Positions 7,422 through 53,735 of a stretch of DNA of 64,000 nucleotides are shown piece after piece. The position numbers were made by a program, and so were the translations under genes. Every line of letters begins with the position of its first letter. The first letter of the stretch is position 1. The stretch comes from Ensifer oleiphilus (GTDB lineage Bacteria; Pseudomonadota; Alphaproteobacteria; Rhizobiales; Rhizobiaceae): assembly GCF_013371465.1 (NCBI RefSeq), contig NZ_JABWDU010000004.1, positions 186,001-250,000 of the forward strand, read 5' to 3'. The notes below the pieces were generated by a model. The model made no database searches. It worked only from the letters and a program-made list of their open reading frames with translations, and had not been told where the DNA came from.

Positions 7422-8636
7422 ATGATCGATGTGTTGATTGCCGGTGGCGGCTATGTCGGCCTTTCGCTCGCGGTGTCGCTGAAGAAGGCGGCGCCGCATC
7501 TGGCCGTCTCCGTCATCGACGGTGCGCCGGAGGGCGCCTGGAAGCGCGACGAGCGCGCGTCTGCCGTCGCTTCCGCCGCCGAGCGCATGCTTGACGTTCT
7601 CGGCGTCTGGCAAGCGATTGCGCCGGAGGCCGAACCGATCCGGCGCATGGTCATCACCGATTCGAAGACGTCGGATCCGGTGCGGCCGGTTTTCCTCACC
7701 TTCGACGGCGAAGGCGAGGAGGGCAGGCCCTTTGCCCATATGGTGCCGAACACCGCCATGGTCGGTGCGCTGCGTGATGCCTGCGAGGAATTGGGCGTTG
7801 TCGTGCGTCAATCGACGATGGTCGAAACCTTCGAAAGCGGCGATCATGCGGTTGCCGTGACGCTTGCCGGCGGCGAACAGCTGGAAGCCCGGCTGCTGGT
7901 TGCCTGCGACGGCGTGCGCTCGAAGCTGCGCGATGCGGCCGGTATCAAGACGGTCGAGTTCGACTACGGCCAGTCTGGTATCGTCACGACCGTCGAGCAT
8001 GAGCGTCCGCATGAGGGCACGGCCGAGGAGCATTTCCTGCCGGCCGGTCCTTTCGCCACGCTGCCGCTCAAGAACAATCGCTCGTCGCTGGTGTGGACCG
8101 AGCGCACCGCCGATGCCGAGCGCCTGGTCAAGGGCGACGATTTTCTGTTCGAGGAAGAGCTGGAGCGCCGCTTCGGCCACAGGCTCGGCCATCTTAAGGT
8201 CGTGGGCGGTCGCCGCGCCTTTCCGCTCGGCCTGACGCTGGCGCGCGATTTCGTCAAGCCGCGGTTTGCGCTTGCGGGCGATGCCGCCCACGGAATCCAT
8301 CCGATCTCCGGCCAGGGCCTCAATCTCGGCTTCAAGGACGTGGCGGCGCTGGCCGAGACGATCGTCGAGGCGGACCGCCTCGGGCTCGACATCGGTTCGC
8401 TCGCCATCCTTGAGCGCTACCAGAGCTGGCGCCGGTTCGACACGTTCCGCATGGGGGTGACGACCGATGTGCTCAACCGGCTGTTTTCGAACGACATCAC
8501 GCCGGTCCGGATCGCCCGCGATTTCGGCCTCGGGCTCGTCGACCGGCTGCCGTCGCTGAAAAGCTTCTTCATCCGCCAGGCTGCCGGCATTGCCGGCGAC
8601 GCGGACCCGCGGCTGCTATCCGGTCAGGCGATCTGA
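7422..8636 (+). CDS. ubiH: UbiH/UbiF-family FAD-dependent hydroxylase
   Basis: Predicted ubiquinone-ring hydroxylase (class A flavoprotein monooxygenase), 404 residues. It begins MIDVLIAGGGYVGLSLAV, a Rossmann GxGxxG FAD site; the mid-region has the DG motif (LLVACDGVRSKLRDAAG) and the C-terminal FAD motif is LAGDAAHGIHPISGQGLN, diagnostic of the UbiH/COQ6 family. GGGAGA lies six bases before the ATG. Which ring position it hydroxylates cannot be told from sequence. The 3' end is followed 30 bases later by a RIME-like repeat. Confidence 0.88.
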   Translation: MIDVLIAGGGYVGLSLAVSLKKAAPHLAVSVIDGAPEGAWKRDERASAVASAAERMLDVLGVWQAIAPEAEPIRRMVITDSKTSDPVRPVFLTFDGEGEEGRPFAHMVPNTAMVGALRDACEELGVVVRQSTMVETFESGDHAVAVTLAGGEQLEARLLVACDGVRSKLRDAAGIKTVEFDYGQSGIVTTVEHERPHEGTAEEHFLPAGPFATLPLKNNRSSLVWTERTADAERLVKGDDFLFEEELERRFGHRLGHLKVVGGRRAFPLGLTLARDFVKPRFALAGDAAHGIHPISGQGLNLGFKDVAALAETIVEADRLGLDIGSLAILERYQSWRRFDTFRMGVTTDVLNRLFSNDITPVRIARDFGLGLVDRLPSLKSFFIRQAAGIAGDADPRLLSGQAI

Positions 8637-15247: not shown

Positions 15248-15309
15248 GATTATTTGATAGCGCGGCAGGGGCGCGGGGGTCAATGAAAAACGATTCGCCG
15301 GCTAGAAGG

Positions 15310-45939: not shown

Positions 45940-47247
45940 TCATTTCTGCCGCAACAGCTCCTCTACGGAGGCCGCGATCGCCAACAGCGTCCTGTCCGTT
46001 CCGTTCCGGCCCACCAGCATCAGCCCCGCCGGGCGGGTCAGTCCCGGCATCGGTAGCGTTATGGCGGTGAGGTCGAACTGGTTTGCGACCTGGCAGTTGC
46101 GCAACAGCAAGCCCTCGACACGGTCATATTCCGCCTCATTCGCCTCCACCGAGGCGATCGACACCGCCGCGATCGGCGTCGTCGGCAGGACGATGAGGTC
46201 GTAGGCCGAGAGCCGTTCGTCCATGGCGCGCGCCAGGCCTGCTCTCGTCTCCAGCAGCGCATCGAGCGCCGCCTGCGGGGTCTGTAAACGACGCCGGAGC
46301 GTTGATGAAACCCTGACATCCACGGGTGCGTCCTCGTCAGAAAGCCAGTCGGTATGCAGCCGGCTTGCCTCGAGGCCGGCGATCGAGCCGATGACGGTCG
46401 CTTGCCGCAAGCGGTCGATCAGATCGTCGATGCTGCAATCCACGAGCTGGGCGCCGGCAGCCTTGAGGCGGTCGAGACTGGCGGCGAACGCCTCTGAAAT
46501 CTCAGGTGAGAGGTCGGCCAGAAGCTGGCCGCGCGGCACGCCGATGCGCAGGCCGGCGATCGGGCGTGGTACAAGCGTTGTCGCCGTTTCGCCGGCCATG
46601 ATGGCATCGGCAGCTGCGCAGTCGCTGACTGCAAGGGCAAGCGGGCCGATCGAGTCGAGGCTCGGAGCAAGAGGAAAGGCACCGTCGAGCGGGATACGGC
46701 TTGCAGTCGGCTTGAAGCCGACAAGGCCGTTCAGCGCCGCCGGGATGCGCACGGAGCCGCCGGTGTCGGAGCCGATGGCGATGTCGCAAGTGCCTTCCGC
46801 CGCAGACACAGCAGCACCCGAGGACGAGCCGCCGGGGATCAGGCTTTCATCGGTGGCGTTGCCCGGCACCGGATAATGGGGATTGAGCCCGACCGCGGTG
46901 AAGGCGAATTCTGTCATGTGGGTCTTGCCGACGATCACGGCGCCGGCGGCGCGCAAGCGCTCGACGATGACAGCCTCCTGTTGCGGCACGGCTGCCGTGC
47001 GCTTGATGATCGAGCCGGCGAGCGTCGGTTCGCCCGCGATGTCGAAGAGATCCTTGATCGAGATGATCCTGCCGTCGAGCGGCCCGAGCGTGTTGCCCGC
47101 CTGCCGGCGGCGATCGGCGGCATCGGCCTCGGCGCGCGCGCTTTCCGCGTAGAGTTTCACATAGGTCTTTTCGTTGTCGCGGCGGGCATCGAGCCTCGCC
47201 AGGACCTGTTCGAGATGATCGCTTACGGGAGTGGTCGATTGGGACAC
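45940..47247 (-). CDS. Amidase-signature family hydrolase
   Basis: 435 residues from GTG 47247. The Ser-Ser-Lys triad is present: Lys in IISIKDLFDIAG, and the AS motif GGSSSGAAVSAAEGTCDIAI followed by GSDTGGSVRIPA. These define the amidase signature family (GatA, AtzF, aryl-amidases). The substrate is not predictable; it is not GatA, as no gatB/gatC neighbours and the C-terminus differs. The GTG is favoured by AGG and by the family N-terminus; an ATG at 47304 would add 19 residues. Confidence 0.88.
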   Translation of the reverse strand: MSQSTTPVSDHLEQVLARLDARRDNEKTYVKLYAESARAEADAADRRRQAGNTLGPLDGRIISIKDLFDIAGEPTLAGSIIKRTAAVPQQEAVIVERLRAAGAVIVGKTHMTEFAFTAVGLNPHYPVPGNATDESLIPGGSSSGAAVSAAEGTCDIAIGSDTGGSVRIPAALNGLVGFKPTASRIPLDGAFPLAPSLDSIGPLALAVSDCAAADAIMAGETATTLVPRPIAGLRIGVPRGQLLADLSPEISEAFAASLDRLKAAGAQLVDCSIDDLIDRLRQATVIGSIAGLEASRLHTDWLSDEDAPVDVRVSSTLRRRLQTPQAALDALLETRAGLARAMDERLSAYDLIVLPTTPIAAVSIASVEANEAEYDRVEGLLLRNCQVANQFDLTAITLPMPGLTRPAGLMLVGRNGTDRTLLAIAASVEELLRQK

Positions 47248-47407
47248 GATGAGGAACCTGCCGGTATCTGCGGTCGCCGGGCGGCGCGTTGTTTTTTCGT
47301 CCATTGCCCGGTGCGAAAGTCGCCGTCAGGCAAGACGGCAATCTTCATAGCAGGGCTTTCGGCAAATGCCATGCGGTTGCCGATGGCAGTCCACGCAACC
47401 CGACCCT

Positions 47408-48214
47408 TCAACCGGGCTTGTGGGCGCAGAGAATGAAGCGGCGATAGACGAAGGTACGCAGGCAGTTTCGCAGGTTTGCGGTCTTGCGCTGTGCGGCGGC
47501 GATCGGCCGGTGGGATGTCCGCTCGATGGTCCCGAAGCCGGCAAGTTTCAGCATCGGCAGCAGCGTCTCGGCGGTCAGGCCCTCGCCGAAGGGCAGGTTC
47601 TGCATGATCGTCGCATGGCGGTCGCTGAGCGCGCCGTCGTAGTGATTGTCCGGCCCGATCACCCGGTCGATCTGGCGGATCGCCCAGGTCGCCAGGCGTC
47701 CAACCGTGGTTGGCTTCGCCCAGTCGCCGTCAAAAACCAGCAGCTTGCCGCCGGGCTTCAGCAAGCGGAACCATTCGCCAAGCGTCGCCTGCGGTTGGGT
47801 CAGCGTCCACACCAGATGCCGGCAGACGATCGCGTCATAGCGCTCGTCCGGCTCCATGGTGTTTTCCGCGTCGGCAAGGAGGAAGCGAAGGCGGGGTTTG
47901 CCGGCATGTTTTTTCCCGGCGACGGCAAGCATCGCCTCGGAGAAATCGAGTGCGGTGACGTCGTGGCCAAGGTCGTGGATCAGCCGCGTCACTTCGCCGG
48001 TGCCGCAGGCAAGCTCGAGCACCCGCAGCGGCTTGGCCCCGAGAAAGTCGCGCACCGGTTTCTGCCAGGCATCGAATTCCGGGCCGTGCGGGATGCGGTG
48101 GCCGAAGGCAAGGTCGAAGGTTTCGGAGCGTTTCGACCAGTAGTCGCGGATCTCGTCCTTGAGGTCGAAGTTTGCCCTTGCGTCCGGCCTGGCTCTTTCA
48201 GCCAGCTCGCTCAT
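47408..48214 (-). CDS. Class I SAM-dependent methyltransferase
   Basis: 268 residues. Motif I VLELACGTGEVTRLI, acidic LDFSEAML, post-motif VCRHLVWTLTQPQATLGEW and LLKPGGKLLVFDGDWAKP are the Methyltransf_11/25 pattern. The substrate is unknown. The ATG overlaps the stop of the cupredoxin gene by four bases (ATGA), so it is translationally coupled and lies in the cobalamin-riboswitch operon. Its presence there could point to a corrinoid- or metal-related substrate (inference only). Confidence 0.88.
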   Translation of the reverse strand: MSELAERARPDARANFDLKDEIRDYWSKRSETFDLAFGHRIPHGPEFDAWQKPVRDFLGAKPLRVLELACGTGEVTRLIHDLGHDVTALDFSEAMLAVAGKKHAGKPRLRFLLADAENTMEPDERYDAIVCRHLVWTLTQPQATLGEWFRLLKPGGKLLVFDGDWAKPTTVGRLATWAIRQIDRVIGPDNHYDGALSDRHATIMQNLPFGEGLTAETLLPMLKLAGFGTIERTSHRPIAAAQRKTANLRNCLRTFVYRRFILCAHKPG

Positions 48215-48660
48215 TGCGCCGCCTTTGCCTGATCGATGCGGGCGAAGATCGCATCGAAGCGGCCGCGCGCCCGACCGGGAACCTCGGCCTTGCGGAAGGC
48301 CTCGGTCAGTTCCGCCTCGCCGACCTTGATCAGCATCACCATGCCCATGGCGAAATGTGGCGAGCACTTGATGCCGTAGAAGCCCGGCGTGTCGAAGCTG
48401 ACCTCGATCTCCTCGTTGATCTGGCCCTTGAAGCCGGCATAGTCCGCAGGCACCATGCCGTCGATCGAGGCGGCGTTGTGGCTCTTGTGTCCGACCCGAA
48501 ATTTGACGCGGTCGCCGGGCTTCAGCTCGACATAGTCAGGCTCGAAGACCATCGAGCCGTTTTCGCCGCGGTTGAGCATCTTCACTTCGATGGTCTCGGC
48601 AAAGGCCGGAGCGGTGGTGAGCCCGAGGGCGAGAAGGGCAGCAGCGATCTTAGCGCGCAT
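48211..48660 (-). CDS. Pseudoazurin-like cupredoxin
   Basis: 149-residue periplasmic blue copper protein. Signal AKIAAALLALGLTTAPAFA. Copper ligands of pseudoazurin are all present: His in HKSHNAAS, and Cys-Ser-Pro-His followed by Met eight residues after the Cys (IKCSPHFAMGMVML). It carries electrons, often to nitrite or N2O reductase, but no such gene is near. The C-terminal tail (AFRKAEVPGRARGRFDAIFA) is long and basic. It begins inside the end of the ATPase gene and overlaps the methyltransferase. The first ATG at 48666 is also possible. Confidence 0.92.
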   Translation of the reverse strand: MRAKIAAALLALGLTTAPAFAETIEVKMLNRGENGSMVFEPDYVELKPGDRVKFRVGHKSHNAASIDGMVPADYAGFKGQINEEIEVSFDTPGFYGIKCSPHFAMGMVMLIKVGEAELTEAFRKAEVPGRARGRFDAIFARIDQAKAAQ

Positions 48661-49465
48661 GGTCATGTCTCTTCATGGTGTCGGATATCAGGTGCAGTTT
48701 TGGACGCGGGCGGCGATAGCGAACGAAGCACGAGCCGTCCTCGTCGTGCTCGACCGTCGCTGCGACCCCGAAGACCGCGAGAATTCGCTCTTCCGTCAGG
48801 ATCTCCGTCGGGGTCCCGAGCGCGACGATGCGGCCGCGATCCATCACGGCGATGCGGTCGCAGAAGACGGCGGCGTGGTTGAGATCGTGCAGGGCGGCAA
48901 CGACCGTCAACGGCTGTCCCCGGACGAGCTCGAGCAGGCCGATCTGGTGGTGGATGTCGAGATGGTTGGTCGGTTCGTCGAGCAGCAGGATCTGCGGCTG
49001 TTGTGCCAGTGCCCGGGCGATATGCAATCGCTGGCGCTCGCCGCCGGACAGCGTGTGCCACATGCGATCGGCAAAATCGCTCATGCCCACATGGTCGAGC
49101 GCTCGGGCGACGATATCGGTGTCGCGCCCCGACCAGGGTGAAAGCGCGCCGAGATGCGGCGTGCGGCCGAGCTCGACCGCCTGGCGGGCGGTGATGCGTT
49201 CGGTGGTTTCCGCCTGCTGCTCGACCAGCGCGATGCGTTGCGCGATGTCGCGCCGCGTAGATTTTGCGAGCGGGTGCCCTTCGAGACTGACGATGCCGGA
49301 TTTCGGCGGGCGGATGCCTGCGAGCAGCGAGATCAGGCTGGTCTTGCCTGATCCGTTCGGGCCGATGATGCCGAGAAACTCTTGCGGCATAACCTCGAGG
49401 TCGACGGCGTCGACGATCAGCCGGCCGCCGGCCGACCAGGAAACGGTTTCGGCCTTGAGGCTCAT
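48650..49465 (-). CDS. btuD: ABC transporter ATPase, BtuD/FecE type
   Basis: 271 residues. Walker A GIIGPNGSGKTSLISL, signature LSGGERQRLHIARAL, Walker B ILLLDEPTNHLDIHH and the H-loop VVAALHDLNH are intact. Similarity to iron-siderophore/cobalamin import ATPases (FecE, BtuD, HmuV). Its start overlaps the permease stop by four bases. The cobalamin riboswitch upstream of the operon favours a vitamin B12 or corrinoid substrate over iron. Confidence 0.9.
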   Translation of the reverse strand: MSLKAETVSWSAGGRLIVDAVDLEVMPQEFLGIIGPNGSGKTSLISLLAGIRPPKSGIVSLEGHPLAKSTRRDIAQRIALVEQQAETTERITARQAVELGRTPHLGALSPWSGRDTDIVARALDHVGMSDFADRMWHTLSGGERQRLHIARALAQQPQILLLDEPTNHLDIHHQIGLLELVRGQPLTVVAALHDLNHAAVFCDRIAVMDRGRIVALGTPTEILTEERILAVFGVAATVEHDEDGSCFVRYRRPRPKLHLISDTMKRHDHAR

Positions 49466-50490
49466 GACGCCGCTCTCCCGCGGCTGAGGATCAGCGCGAA
49501 GGCCGGGGCGCCGACGAGCGCGGTGATCACGCCGATCGGCAGCACCTGGCCGGGAATGATGACCCTCGACAAGATGTCGGCGGCGATCATGAAGATCGCT
49601 CCGGTGAGTGCTGCTGCCGGCAGCAGCAGGCCGTGGCGCACGCCGACCAGGAAGCGTGCGGCATGCGGTATGACGAGGCCGACGAAGCCGATGGAGCCGA
49701 CGATGCTGACCATCACCGCCGTCATCAGCGCCGTTGCCGAAATGAGGGTCGCATAGACGCGTTTCACCGGGATGCCGAGCGAGGCGGCCGATTCGGCGCC
49801 GAAGGTGAAGGCGTCGAGCGCGCGGGCATGCCAGAGGCAGACGAGGAGGCCGGCAAGCGCCACCGGCAAGGCCAGCGCCACATCCGGCCAGCGCACGCCC
49901 GAGAGGTTGCCGAGCAGCCAGAACATGATGCCCCGGGCCTGCTCGGCATTGGCGGATTTGGTGACGATGAAGGAGGTGAGCGCGTTGAAGAGTTGCGAGC
50001 CGGCAACGCCGGCGAGAATGATGGCACCGGTGCCGCGGCCCGCCCTCAGCGCCAGGAGGGAGACGAGCGCGAAGGCGAAGACCGCGCCGAAGAAGGCGCC
50101 GAGCGACAGCGTCAACATGCCCGCGCCGATGCCGAGAATGGCGACGGCGACCGCACCGGTCGATGCGCCGGCGGAGATGCCGAGGATATAGGGATCGGCC
50201 AGGGAATTGCGGAGCAGTGCCTGCAAGACGACGCCGCAGAGCGACAGTGCTGCTCCGCAGCACGCGGCCACGACAGCGCGGCTGAGGCGATAGTTCCAGA
50301 CGATGCCCTCGTCGATCGCATCGAGCGGGTATCCGGCACCCCAGAGGCGGTTGGCGACCGTCTTGCCGACGACGTCGAGTGGGATCGCTGTTTCGCCGAT
50401 GGCGGCGCCGAGCGCCAGCGCCAGGAAAAGCAGTGCGAACGCCGTCAGGACGGCGCCCGTTCTATTGATCGTTGGAGGTATTGACCTCAC
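49462..50490 (-). CDS. btuC: ABC transporter permease, BtuC/FecCD type
   Basis: 342 residues with about ten membrane spans. The FecCD family features GVVLQALLRNSLADPYILGI, ALVGAPAFALILSRGR and GLVIPHAARFLVG are present. It starts with GTG overlapping the binding-protein stop (GTGA) and overlaps the ATPase start. Forms the membrane dimer of the importer. Confidence 0.92.
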   Translation of the reverse strand: MRSIPPTINRTGAVLTAFALLFLALALGAAIGETAIPLDVVGKTVANRLWGAGYPLDAIDEGIVWNYRLSRAVVAACCGAALSLCGVVLQALLRNSLADPYILGISAGASTGAVAVAILGIGAGMLTLSLGAFFGAVFAFALVSLLALRAGRGTGAIILAGVAGSQLFNALTSFIVTKSANAEQARGIMFWLLGNLSGVRWPDVALALPVALAGLLVCLWHARALDAFTFGAESAASLGIPVKRVYATLISATALMTAVMVSIVGSIGFVGLVIPHAARFLVGVRHGLLLPAAALTGAIFMIAADILSRVIIPGQVLPIGVITALVGAPAFALILSRGRAAS

Positions 50491-51530
50491 TTCGCCAGGC
50501 CGGCTTTTTCGATGGCGTCAGCCAGCACCTCGATGCCCTCGATCGTGCGGATCGTCGGGTTCATCGCCTGTGCGTCCATGACGACGATATGGTCCGCCTT
50601 GACCGCCGGCATTAGGCTGGTCACCGGGTCGGACTTCAGGAACTTCATCTTCAGTTCCCAGTCGTCGGCCGGGAAGCGGCGGCGGTCCATCTTGCCGATC
50701 ACCACGATCTTCGGATTGGCCTTGGCGATGGTTTCCCAGCCGATGGTCGGCCATTCCTCTTCGGTGGAGACGACATTCTTGATGCCGAGCGCCGACAGGA
50801 TGTAGCCAGGAGCGCCATTGGTGCCGGCGACATAGGGGTCGATGTCCATCTCGGCGCTGGAGAACCAGAAGACCGCCGACAGCTTGCCGTCGGCATTGGC
50901 GATCTTGCCGCGTGCGGCTTCTTCGCGGGCCTTCAGCTTGGCGACCAGCGCTTGCCCTCGATCCTGCACGTCGAAGATCTCGGCGAGCTCAGCGATCTCC
51001 TGGTAGATGAGGTCCATCGAGAAGGATTTGTGGCGCACGCCGTCGCCGCCAGCCGAATTGTCCTTGGCGGCGCAATCGGCAGGAGAGACATAGACGGGGA
51101 TCGACAGTTCGGCGAACTGCTTCGGCGTCGCGACGATGCCTTCAGGCCCGACATGCCACTGGAACTGGGCGGTCACCAGATTCGGCTTGGTGGCAACGAC
51201 GCTTTCGAAGCTCGGGTCGTTGTCGGCAAGGCGCGGAACCTTGCTGTTGACGTCCTCGTAGCCGTCGATAACAGGGCCGATCCAGACGGCTGTGCCGACG
51301 ACCTTGTCTGCGAGGCCGAGAAGATAAAGGATTTCCGTGCTGCTCTGACCGATCGAGGCGGTGCGCGTCGGCGCCGCCTTAAAGGTAACCTCCTGGCCGC
51401 AATTCTTTAAGGTCAGGGGGTAGCTCGTCGCGGCCGCAAGAGCGGTTGCGGGAGCGACGGTCAGAAGCAGGGCCACGGAAACGGCAAGGGATGGGCAATG
51501 GCGCCCGACGGCATTCAAAATGGCTTTCAA
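50487..51530 (-). CDS. btuF: ABC transporter substrate-binding protein, BtuF type
   Basis: 347 residues. A signal (VALLLTVAPATALAA) precedes the class III binding-protein fold: SIGQSSTEILYLLGLADKVV, NPKIVVIGKMDRRRFPAD and a C-terminal IEGIEVLADAIEKAGLAK. Substrates of this fold are B12, haem or siderophores; the riboswitch upstream points to cobalamin. The start is TTG at 51530 with a weak AG-rich site. A 35-codon leader ORF ends 33 bases before it. Confidence 0.9.
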   Translation of the reverse strand: MKAILNAVGRHCPSLAVSVALLLTVAPATALAAATSYPLTLKNCGQEVTFKAAPTRTASIGQSSTEILYLLGLADKVVGTAVWIGPVIDGYEDVNSKVPRLADNDPSFESVVATKPNLVTAQFQWHVGPEGIVATPKQFAELSIPVYVSPADCAAKDNSAGGDGVRHKSFSMDLIYQEIAELAEIFDVQDRGQALVAKLKAREEAARGKIANADGKLSAVFWFSSAEMDIDPYVAGTNGAPGYILSALGIKNVVSTEEEWPTIGWETIAKANPKIVVIGKMDRRRFPADDWELKMKFLKSDPVTSLMPAVKADHIVVMDAQAMNPTIRTIEGIEVLADAIEKAGLAK

Positions 51531-51563
51531 GGGAATTCTTTCTTCTCGTGAGCTTACGAAGGG

Positions 51564-51671
51564 TCAACCGGAGCGGCGACAGTCGGCCGAGCGAATTTCG
51601 GGAGACAATCGATCGCAAACGTCGAGAAGGACGGGAAGAGAGGGCGCAAAGCCGCGCGATATGCGGATCAT
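51564..51671 (-). CDS. Leader ORF between cobalamin riboswitch and btuF
   Basis: 35 codons. ATG 51669-51671 has AGGAG exactly six bases upstream, a better site than that of btuF. The product reads MIRISRGFAPSLPVLLDVCD and ends DCRRSG, with two cysteines. The stop is 33 bases before the btuF start, so translation could be coupled. A CGGGC/GCCCG hairpin lies just before its Shine-Dalgarno. Not a known family; coding status is inferred from the ribosome site. Confidence 0.55.
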   Translation of the reverse strand: MIRISRGFAPSLPVLLDVCDRLSPEIRSADCRRSG

Positions 51672-51723
51672 GGACAACTCCTGTTCCGGGCAACCCCGCC
51701 CGTGACGCTGGATCTTCTGCTTG

Positions 51724-51903
51724 ACGGCAGGTCTCCTGGCTCGCGGATGGTTCGCCCTCCACCTGCCTTCCCGCAACGCGCATGACGCAATCGCAGTGGC
51801 ATGGCGCTGTCGCGCCACAGGGGTGTCCGGCATTCCGCTTACAGTTGCGGGGGCAGCCACGGTCTCGGTCCCTTTTGGGTCGTCCTCACCGTGTTCCCTA
51901 TTA
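51724..51903 (-). ncRNA. Cobalamin riboswitch
   Basis: On the minus strand the class I/II core is clear in order: GGGAACACGGTG opening, ACCGTGGCTGCCCCCGCAAC followed by TGTAAGCGG, GCCACTG, GGGAAGGCAGG, and the 3' B12 box GAGCCAGGAGACCTGCC. Binding of coenzyme B12 normally represses the downstream genes. It controls the btuFCD-cupredoxin-methyltransferase operon. Confidence 0.95.
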
Positions 51904-52090
51904 ATCCCCGTTAGAGTCATCCTTCGGGGAACCGTCGCCGCTACCCTTAGTGTCCCGGTCCGTGCGGCGTCAAGCCGACCGGTTGCGGAAACCGCCTTGC
52001 TGCTACCGCGTTGCGGCGGCTTACCGTAAAGCGTGGCAAGGGTCCGCCTTCACCGAATTGTCGCGAAACCGTTCAAATTGTTTCATGTCG

Positions 52091-52108
52091 CTGTCAACGC
52101 GCTGACAT
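52091..52108 (+). promoter_or_regulatory. PHO box of phoD
   Basis: CTGTCAA-CGCG-CTGACAT is the two-repeat PhoB site CTGTCAT-N4-CTGTCAT with one mismatch in each repeat. It lies 65 bases before the phoD TTG. Expect induction on phosphate starvation. Confidence 0.75.
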
Positions 52109-52172
52109 CAGAACAACCAAAAGTCCGGCACGCGAAACGCAGCTTTTCGCGAGGTTCGAACCGGAGGCTTGT

Positions 52173-53735
52173 TTGGCCGAAATCCTCACCACGCTCACCC
52201 GCCGCTCCTTTCTTCTGTCTGCCGGTGCTGCCGGCCTCGTCGCGTCCTCCGGTCTTGCCACGCCGTTTTATGCCCGCGGTTACGGCCGGCCGGAATTCAT
52301 CCATGGCGTGCAGTCGGGCGATGTCGACACAAGCTCCGGCATGGTGTGGACTCGGGTCGACAGGCCGTCGCGGGTAACGCTGGAGTACTCGACGACCGAA
52401 AGCTTTTCCAATCCGGTTCGGCTTGCCGATCTCACCGCGACACCGCAGACGGATTGCGCGGTGAAGTGTTCGCTCGACAATCTCCTGCCCGATCAGGACA
52501 TCTTCTACCGGTTCATCGCGACCGATCTCTACGACGTCAACCGGGTGTCGGAGCCTGTCATCGGCCGGTTTCGCACAGCGCCCTTGCGCAAGCGCTCGAT
52601 CCGCTTCGTCTGGTCCGGAGATACAGCCGGCCAGGGCTGGGGCATCGACGATGTCGGCATGAAGACCTATTCCACCATGCGCCTGCACGAGCCGGACTTC
52701 TTCATCCATTCCGGCGACACGATCTATGCCGACAATCCCATTCCCGACGAGATCCCCTTGCGCGATGGTGGCATCTGGAAGAACCGGGTGGTGACGCATG
52801 AGAAACGCGACGTGGCGCGCACGCTCGAAGAGTATCGCGGCCAATGGAAGTACAATCTTCTCGACAGCCATGTGCGTGAACTCAACGCCGTCTGTCCGAC
52901 CTTCTATCAATGGGACGACCACGAGGTCTTGAACAACTGGTCGGCCTCGACGAATCTTCGCGACGATCCGCGTTATCCGGAAAAGGACGTTGCCGTCTAT
53001 GCGGCCCGCGCTAGCCGGGCATTCAGCGAGATGACGCCGATCCGCATGCCACCGGCACAGCCGGGTCGCATCTTCCGCAAGATCGCCTACGGCCCGCTTC
53101 TCGATGTCTTCTTCGTCGATCTCCGGTCCTACCGCGGCCCCAACCAGGGGGAGGGCGATGGCGGCCTGTTCGGTTGGCGCCAGGCGGATTGGCTGAAGCG
53201 GGAGCTGGCCGCCTCACGCGCGGTGTGGAAGGTGATCGCCTGCGACATGCCCATCGGCCTCGTCGTCTGGGACGATTATGCCAACAGGCGCGGCTCCGAT
53301 GCCATCGCCAATGGCGATAATGGTGCGCCGACGGGCCGCGAAACCGAATTTGCCGACCTGCTCCGCTTCATCAGGGACAATGCCATCGACAACCTCGTCT
53401 GGCTGACGGCGGATGTGCATTACACGGCGGCGCATCACTACGATCCGTCGCGCGCAGCCTTCAAGGATTTCCTGCCCTTCTGGGAGTTCGTTTCCGGTCC
53501 CTTGCATTCCGGCACCTATGGTCCGAAGGAGCTGGACATGACCTTCGGCCCGGACGTGCGCTTCATCAAGGCATCGGGCGGCGGCGTCGACAGCAACCTG
53601 CCGCCATCCGCCGGCCTGCAGTTCTTCGGCATCGTCGATATCAATGGCCAGACGAAGCAGATGACGGTGCGCCTGATGGATCGGCAAGACCAGGAACTGT
53701 GGCGCGTGACGCTCGATCCGGCCGCTGTCGCGTGA
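52173..53735 (+). CDS. phoD: Alkaline phosphatase D (PhoD)
   Basis: 520-residue Tat-exported phosphomono/diesterase. The start is TTG (GGAGG five bases upstream). The N-terminus has the Tat signal TTLTRRSFLLSAGAAGLVAS. The PhoD domains show FIHGVQSGDV, FVWSGDTAGQGWGIDD, FFIHSGDTIYADN (metal Asp), FYQWDDHEVLNNW and LTADVHYTAAHHY (metal His). Upstream is a PHO box. No partner genes. Confidence 0.94.
   Translation: MAEILTTLTRRSFLLSAGAAGLVASSGLATPFYARGYGRPEFIHGVQSGDVDTSSGMVWTRVDRPSRVTLEYSTTESFSNPVRLADLTATPQTDCAVKCSLDNLLPDQDIFYRFIATDLYDVNRVSEPVIGRFRTAPLRKRSIRFVWSGDTAGQGWGIDDVGMKTYSTMRLHEPDFFIHSGDTIYADNPIPDEIPLRDGGIWKNRVVTHEKRDVARTLEEYRGQWKYNLLDSHVRELNAVCPTFYQWDDHEVLNNWSASTNLRDDPRYPEKDVAVYAARASRAFSEMTPIRMPPAQPGRIFRKIAYGPLLDVFFVDLRSYRGPNQGEGDGGLFGWRQADWLKRELAASRAVWKVIACDMPIGLVVWDDYANRRGSDAIANGDNGAPTGRETEFADLLRFIRDNAIDNLVWLTADVHYTAAHHYDPSRAAFKDFLPFWEFVSGPLHSGTYGPKELDMTFGPDVRFIKASGGGVDSNLPPSAGLQFFGIVDINGQTKQMTVRLMDRQDQELWRVTLDPAAVA

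Follow-up and report, generated by a model that had tools for sequence, protein, structure and literature searches.

A pseudoazurin branch encoded with cobalamin riboswitch-led FecCD-type importers in Ensifer oleiphilus and its relatives

To our knowledge, vitamin B12 importers have been described as a binding protein plus an ATP-binding cassette (ABC) transporter, with no redox protein among their parts. Here we analyze an operon in a 64,000-nucleotide stretch of Ensifer oleiphilus DNA (contig NZ_JABWDU010000004.1, positions 186,001 to 250,000; called the window below), in which genes for a binding protein, a permease, and an ATPase lie behind a cobalamin riboswitch and are followed by genes for a blue copper protein, pseudoazurin, and a methyltransferase (Table 1). 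The closest described system is BtuFCD under a cobalamin riboswitch, with which the window operon shares the riboswitch, a PF01497 binding protein, a FecCD permease, and an ATPase. It differs in its two additional cistrons, in scoring below the BtuC and BtuD cut-offs with no BtuF match and lying closer to EitA/F420-0 ABC models, and in that the genome carries a separate locus of riboswitch, TonB receptor, binding protein, and FecCD permease. The pseudoazurin is like the denitrification electron donors of model TIGR02375 in that it passes the model and keeps the four copper ligands, but it belongs to a branch of its own with its own residues at positions 10 and 43 and without association with nosZ or nirK. 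Finally, FtrABCD, EfeUOB, and P19 also encode a periplasmic cupredoxin with a metal importer; they are set apart by a different cupredoxin family, whereas here the partner is an ABC importer behind a B12 riboswitch.

A member of this operon type has been listed before. Sinorhizobium meliloti smb20056 appeared behind a B12 riboswitch in 2007 (PMC2245857), and its coordinates, together with its listing in PMC2396165, make it the orthologue of a window operon gene. In the open-access literature (subscription papers lie outside this scope) we found nothing that pairs pseudoazurin with “cobalamin riboswitch” or cupredoxin with cobalamin and riboswitch, nothing with azurin, “B12 riboswitch,” and regulon together, and no description of a copper-protein step in corrinoid acquisition; the open-access papers that name pseudoazurin along with vitamin B12 or cobalamin appear to concern denitrification, copper, or metal proteomics. 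We tentatively propose that Alpha- and Betaproteobacteria may have a B12-repressed form of corrinoid uptake in which a dedicated blue copper subfamily determines, ahead of import, the redox state of the cobalt. If so, the ties of this branch to a transporter, through riboswitch, gene junction, and residues, would mean that pseudoazurins do more than carry electrons in denitrification; they would caution against annotating every pseudoazurin as such a carrier, and Ala43 would be a handle for finding the branch.

The linkage itself is seen far beyond the window. A search of the genome collection with the cupredoxin gave 80 loci (the window's own L006, L010, and L126 are excluded from the pseudoazurin set), and in 27 of these the transporter lies directly upstream of the pseudoazurin gene. 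An RF00174 riboswitch precedes the binding-protein gene in 26 of the 27 by cmscan, the last (L044) being cut by a contig end, and the riboswitch motif was found in none of the 53 other pseudoazurin loci, in stretches of at most 8 kb on each side and with a pattern that recovered 26/26 known cases. Plasmid records add Rhodobacter capsulatus, Haematobacter, Comamonas, Paracoccus pantotrophus, Roseomonas marmotae, Shinella, Ensifer, and Cereibacter, and the hosts of operon pseudoazurins include Rhizobiaceae, Brucellaceae, Aurantimonadaceae, Paracoccaceae/Roseobacteraceae, Geminicoccaceae, Acetobacteraceae, and Comamonadaceae. An arrangement that recurs across orders in this way is more than chance. 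Gene order in relatives links both the cupredoxin and the methyltransferase genes to the riboswitch-transporter operon there too, a check that the original prediction had set for itself and that it survives. The gene that comes next varies: it is cobF instead of the methyltransferase gene in Haematobacter and a porin gene in Comamonas, and cob genes adjoin the operon in 8/34 loci (the query proteins came from three of these). When the 25 largest clusters of genes behind the ATPase were read, many of them frame shadows, no recurrent gene was recognized beyond the cupredoxin, the methyltransferase, an Ensifer-group amidase, and cob genes.

Starting from the transporter instead gives the complementary view. 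Of 151 Rhizobiaceae genomes, 48 contain permease matches at E 1e-90, at 52 places in all, and every one of the 51 outside the window genome was read. A riboswitch is present at 36 of them (34 detected by pattern and two, L192 and L202, by running cmscan on additional sequence); by cmscan, RF00174 was not found in the other 15, one of which (L203) starts only 140 nt before the binding-protein match. The cupredoxin gene occurs in 11/36 riboswitch loci vs 0/15 riboswitch-less loci, and a methyltransferase of at least 50% identity in 8/36 (with two weaker matches besides) vs 0/15. Decay is seen in two of these 11 cupredoxin genes: L176 has lost its ligands and L184 is broken. Thus, the pseudoazurin tracks the riboswitch-led form of the transporter but is dispensable to it. 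In a Rhodobacteraceae-type sample the permease was found at 1e-90 in 8/120 genomes; six of the nine stretches have the riboswitch motif and three (L234, L237, and L241) a pseudoazurin gene, L234 and L241 lying in the genomes of the already known L081 and L096, and L236, which has no ATPase match, being uninformative. Some operons vary in their binding-protein genes: L192, L202, L231, and L232 have one riboswitch, then three tandem binding-protein genes, permease, ATPase, and pseudoazurin, and L173, L184, and L102 have an extra binding-protein match at the operon end.

The pseudoazurins of these operons are a distinct branch with a diagnostic residue set, as judged from their sequences. The window protein passes the pseudoazurin equivalog TIGR02375 (125.9 bits, cut-off 109.85), matches Paracoccus pantotrophus pseudoazurin 4bwu by phmmer with E 9.4e-32, and aligns with solved pseudoazurins over residues 25–144; it has a signal-like N-terminus, Arg10 and Ala43, and the ligands His40, Cys78, His81, and Met86. 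The operon set numbers 47 copies from 45 distinct loci (L131 and L061 are one and the same record, and L179 is identical in sequence to L046); L184 is omitted from the alignment and both L184 and L176 from the tree. In a quick tree of 127 rows and 141 columns the operon copies and one orphan, L132, fall on one side of a branch with Shimodaira-Hasegawa-like approximate likelihood ratio support of 95.7. All four type-1 copper ligands (His, Cys, His, Met) are kept in 46/47 operon copies, the window's included, and are missing from L176. Position 10 is Arg in 47/47 operon copies and Lys in 65/81 others; position 43 is Ala in 46/47 and Glu in 78/81 others (with L062, L132, and L255 as the three exceptions); position 37 is Asp in only 1/47 vs 75/81 others. 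The junction of the ATPase and pseudoazurin genes is also tight, between –20 and +30 nt in 41/43 loci, and pairwise distances between pseudoazurins follow those between permeases (r 0.80, compared with 0.84 for binding protein and permease; 0/500 permutations). Lys38, which we take to be one of the lysine-ring positions of pseudoazurin together with Lys57 and Lys77, is gone from most operon copies; since Lys57 and Lys77 are kept, we draw no conclusion about docking. In L109, a non-operon pseudoazurin (8001–8426) has Asp in place of the first His ligand.

Our best guess, by analogy, is that this pseudoazurin serves the imported corrinoid as an electron carrier in the periplasm, and the whole operon can be read, tentatively, as a B12-repressed importer of a corrinoid or corrinoid precursor with a dedicated pseudoazurin as fourth cistron that swaps electrons with cobalt. 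The aptamer would bind B12, and the hairpin behind it could then mask the adjacent ribosome site; B12 would repress the operon. When B12 is scarce, ribosomes would enter, translate the upstream open reading frame (ORF), and restart at the binding-protein gene, and the gene overlaps may relay them onward. The binding protein, permease, and ATPase, whose families are clear, would import the ligand. The exported pseudoazurin, with its type-1 copper site intact, might exchange single electrons with the cobalt of a periplasmic corrinoid, most likely as the acceptor of an electron from Co(II), which would hold the ligand as Co(III). The methyltransferase would be a cytosolic accessory, common to other FecCD importers, with a small molecule as its substrate. 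Electron flow in this direction is suggested by potentials of about +0.26 V for pseudoazurin, +0.2 V for aquacobalamin Co(III)/Co(II), and –0.6 V for Co(II)/Co(I), and by analogy with iron uptake of the FtrABCD/EfeUOB type, where a like role for iron is ascribed to cupredoxins. The “reductive handling” of imported cobalt in the original prediction fits a blue copper protein poorly, as these potentials would send electrons from Co(II) to copper.

Several observations weigh against this proposal. The pseudoazurin gene is absent from 25/36 riboswitch operons and 2/11 copies are decayed, so uptake does not need the protein. Ala43 occurs outside the operon in L255 as well as in L132. The correlation of pseudoazurin and permease distances is confounded by shared host history, and L217 (G050:C1:242500-249300) has the transporter (permease 77%) and methyltransferase with no RF00174 in its stretch. 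The transporter does not reach the curated BtuC, BtuD, or BtuF models. Terminator-like sites lie on the operon strand inside the permease and methyltransferase genes, which weighs against a single transcript across the operon; both strands together hold 8 such sites vs 3.9 expected. Lastly, the direction of electron flow depends on approximate potentials, and aquacobalamin needs no catalyst to form in air, where it does so readily, which lessens the need for an oxidant.

Some of the same facts would suit a passenger, that is, a pseudoazurin that joined the operon once and has been kept as a spare electron carrier with no role in uptake: the gene is facultative (11/36) and decayed twice, and the orphan L132 of Roseomonas mucosa sits inside the branch with no operon around it. 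The spread of the arrangement over many families, in which the junctions stay tight and the diagnostic residues recur, is not what such a hitchhiker would be expected to leave, and we consider this explanation rather unlikely, though it deserves to be kept in mind. An improbable alternative is that the protein buffers copper or redox stress and shields the uptake machinery or its ligand, exchanging no electrons with the corrinoid. The type-1 site intact in 46/47 copies, the signal-like N-terminus, and the restriction of the Rhizobiaceae cupredoxin to the riboswitch-type transporter (0/15 others) would all be compatible with that role, but the clusters read behind the ATPase show no recurrent gene for copper handling; the recurrent genes there are the cupredoxin, the methyltransferase, and, at three loci, cob.

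Denitrification offers a further explanation, in which the pseudoazurin is a general periplasmic electron carrier under B12 control and damage to B12 by nitrous oxide opens the switch, feeding NosZ or NirK. Pseudoazurin donates electrons to denitrification reductases, and PMC5987163 and PMC8390676, citing Sullivan 2013, report that nitrous oxide inactivates B12 and alters expression of B12-riboswitch genes in Paracoccus denitrificans. This link is the best reason to expect an association with nosZ or nirK, but the counts show none. The host genome has nirK but no nosZ, and it encodes a second, higher-scoring pseudoazurin (192.9 vs 126.2 bits). Neither gene scores over the cut-off in 14/28 genomes with an operon pseudoazurin, and in the Rhizobiaceae sample nosZ is found in 2/11 with vs 6/25 without the cupredoxin gene (Fisher p 1.0) and nirK in 5/11 vs 14/25 (Fisher p 0.72). 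Some nirK genomes (G361, G347, and G278) have another, higher-scoring pseudoazurin near nirK. On these counts, which cover nosZ and nirK, we reject a denitrification donor as the general reason for the operon pseudoazurin, and regard the scenario as a whole as quite improbable. Least credible, and in our view very improbable, is the form of the original prediction in which cupredoxin and methyltransferase would jointly carry out reduction and methylation of the imported cobalt: the genes overlap in the window and the methyltransferase's best, sub-threshold NCBIfam model is corrinoid-protein-associated, but the two assort separately, apparently work in different compartments (a signal-like N-terminus on the cupredoxin and none on the methyltransferase, by reading of the sequences), and the 38–44% methyltransferase relatives stand beside other FecCD importers without RF00174 (8/8 read).

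The transporter is hard to name. The permease misses the curated BtuC cut-off (195.7 of 334 bits) and the ATPase that of BtuD (117.9 of 281 bits), and no BtuF model is among the five listed for the binding protein, whose top NCBIfam model is EitA (341.2 of 640 bits); it is closer to EitA and F420-0 models, all below cut-off. The name btuFCD in the original prediction is thus drawn from the riboswitch and is not carried by the curated models, and a separate riboswitch locus with a TonB receptor is present in the genome. PMC2667541 describes this ABC family as hard to assign from sequence. With the riboswitch, the cob neighbors, and the accessory-free paralogues that lack a riboswitch as guides, the substrate would be a corrinoid or corrinoid precursor.

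The operon anatomy of the window is collected in Table 1. The riboswitch that had been placed at 51724–51903 is confirmed, those positions being the core of the RF00174 match, and the gene order and the presence of overlaps (here 4, 4, 17, and 4 nt) are as originally described, the cupredoxin being a pseudoazurin by TIGR02375. Among named organisms, Ensifer/Sinorhizobium (L040, L041, and L043) and a Rhizobiales bacterium (L042) have the most closely related operons, with cupredoxins 87–93% identical. The amidase gene lies about 100 nt beyond the operon and, among the cupredoxin-search loci, is present only in four close relatives; it is not counted as an operon member. No sigma-70-type site was found in 47000–52300, where 0.7 would be expected by chance; in an alphaproteobacterium this is weak evidence.

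Table 1. Features of the window operon and its surroundings, and other cobalamin riboswitches of the host genome
Feature	Position	Strand	Evidence or detail
Cobalamin riboswitch aptamer RF00174	51951-51709	minus	cmscan 108.8 bits, E 2.5e-26; above gathering score 31.5
Hairpin CGGGC-GGGGTT-GCCCG, between aptamer and ribosome site	51687..51702	minus	sequence
Shine-Dalgarno-like AGGAG of upstream ORF	51678..51682	minus	
Short upstream ORF, 35 codons	51671-51564	minus	stop 33 nt before binding-protein TTG
Periplasmic binding protein of FecCD-type ABC importer, 347 aa, TTG start	51530-50487	minus	PF01497 142 bits
FecCD permease, 342 aa, GTG start, 4-nt overlap with binding-protein gene	50490-49462	minus	PF01032 280.7 bits
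Terminator-like site in permease gene	50459-50436	minus	
ATPase, 271 aa, 4-nt overlap with permease gene	49465-48650	minus	PF00005 122.3 bits
Pseudoazurin, 151 aa, 17-nt overlap with ATPase gene	48666-48211	minus	PF00127; TIGR02375
Class I S-adenosylmethionine (SAM)-dependent methyltransferase, 268 aa, 4-nt overlap with pseudoazurin gene	48214-47408	minus	PF08241 79.5 bits
Terminator-like sites (three overlapping) in methyltransferase gene	47766-47737	minus	
Amidase, downstream of operon	45940-47304	minus	PRK05962 703.8 bits
Riboswitch-led set L220			TonB receptor, PF01497 binding protein, FecCD permease (Pfam)
Riboswitch-led set L219	own genome C22:420000-427000		DUF1636 (PF07845) first gene, PF01497, FecCD; ATPase by reading
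Riboswitch L221			cobalamin-independent methionine synthase (metE) behind it
Riboswitch L222			CbtA (cbtA) behind it
Riboswitch L005	own genome C11, riboswitch at 830078		directly before Rieske/ring-hydroxylating oxygenase gene
Riboswitch L007			nitroreductase-family protein behind it, read as BluB

Behind the aptamer the order is GC hairpin (P13-like by its position), Shine-Dalgarno sequence, and start codon, and this order is general in the operon type. After removal of double hits of a fuzzy motif, which had put the first count at 85, there are 78 leaders, and 68 of them contain the Shine-Dalgarno-plus-start motif, whereas two control windows gave 6/78 and 5/78, and 50 shuffles averaged 5.1 with a maximum of 11/78; the start codon lies at +46 to +54 in 64/68. 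A stricter motif is present in 60/85 leaders vs 5 and 7 in the controls and in 5/22 at other riboswitches, and 67/68 leaders have, ahead of the start codon, a GC stem whose loop contains GGG, compared with a mean of 7.3 and a maximum of 13/68 in 20 shuffles. Only 6/68 of these starts are in frame with the binding protein (L189, L193, and L197 have no later start candidate). In the other 62 a separate ORF is opened, of 21–74 codons in 59 and of 1, 5, and 313 codons in the remaining three, and it is present in 5/5 Ensifer-group leaders. Thus, the riboswitch-proximal ribosome site usually opens a short upstream ORF and not the binding-protein gene, an observation that is new here; reporter fusions to the binding-protein start alone could therefore miss the regulated site.

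The upstream ORF's stop codon overlaps a binding-protein start candidate by 1–4 nt in 10/63 measured leaders, where distances were taken to the nearest in-frame start candidate, a choice that favors short distances. Its peptide shows no sign of conservation in the five Ensifer-group copies (7, 5, and 6 variable sites at codon positions 1, 2, and 3), and since there is no codon-position bias it seems to be translation itself, not the peptide, that matters. Folding of the leader gave a minimum free energy no better than that of shuffled sequences (z 1.37; 188/200 shuffles at least as good), and an exact L5–L13 complement of at least 4 nt was found in 20/67 leaders by a crude search without control. 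Mycobacterium tuberculosis ppe2 (PMC11260477; reviewed in PMC12713380) is a B12 riboswitch with an upstream ORF relay and so resembles the window in that the riboswitch-proximal site opens an upstream ORF; the window differs in being a proteobacterial transport operon and in the position of the stop, 33 nt before the TTG start, whereas the ppe2 type overlaps (AUGA). The words “proteobacteria” and “Rhizob” are absent from PMC11260477, and among the papers listed for further upstream ORF relays behind B12 riboswitches none, by its title or the start of its abstract, concerns this operon.

The methyltransferase is a looser companion of the operon than the pseudoazurin. Its AlphaFold2 model (mean predicted local distance difference test score 91.9; best Foldseek match 4ine, E 1.9e-14) predicts a class I SAM-dependent Rossmann fold with a SAM-binding motif, and the Foldseek neighbors are generic small-molecule methyltransferases (phosphoethanolamine methyltransferases, MitM, and AtmM), from which no substrate follows. 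RHLVWTL is invariant across 26 aligned methyltransferases. The best NCBIfam match is the corrinoid-protein-associated methyltransferase CpaM (NF043040), at 67.9 bits against a cut-off of 180. Nearer relatives (about 60–90%) belong to operons of this type, some of which have the cupredoxin and some of which lack it; the gene follows a transporter with no cupredoxin in L214–L217 and in L127. The last of these, on pSymB of S. meliloti ABS7, is a riboswitch operon without a pseudoazurin gene in which the methyltransferase is split across two frames. Relatives at 38–44% (L223–L230) are found beside other FecCD permeases and ATPases in 8/8 stretches read, four in the same operon as the importer and four within about 3 kb, and RF00174 was found in 0/8 of these stretches. 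Where pseudoazurin and methyltransferase genes are paired on the same strand with >40% identity, they overlap in 17/17 cases, and three of these overlaps measure 136 nt because of the start codon chosen. The methyltransferase gene of Roseomonas marmotae is convergent. In the 36 riboswitch operons of Rhizobiaceae the cupredoxin gene is found in 11, a methyltransferase gene of at least 50% identity in 8, and both in 4 (Fisher p 0.21). This is no significant association, and we reject the idea that the two form one module; the joint redox and methyl-transfer step once envisaged gives way to two separate accessories, and we read the methyltransferase as a general accessory of FecCD importers.

The host genome (6.76 Mb, 32 contigs) has eight cobalamin riboswitches over the cut-off and one just below, and the window operon is one of at least three riboswitch-linked ABC sets in it. 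The window binding protein shares 29% identity with its counterpart in the DUF1636 set and has no significant match to the TonB-receptor-linked binding protein. DUF1636 is a cysteine-rich and possibly redox-active protein, so that a second riboswitch transporter may carry one. A second riboswitch in L221 is followed by nrd genes, by our reading of the translation, and the Rieske oxygenase behind L005 is perhaps a B12-independent demethylase. Elsewhere in the window there is a SAM_alpha riboswitch at 15256–15179 on the minus strand (85.8 bits).

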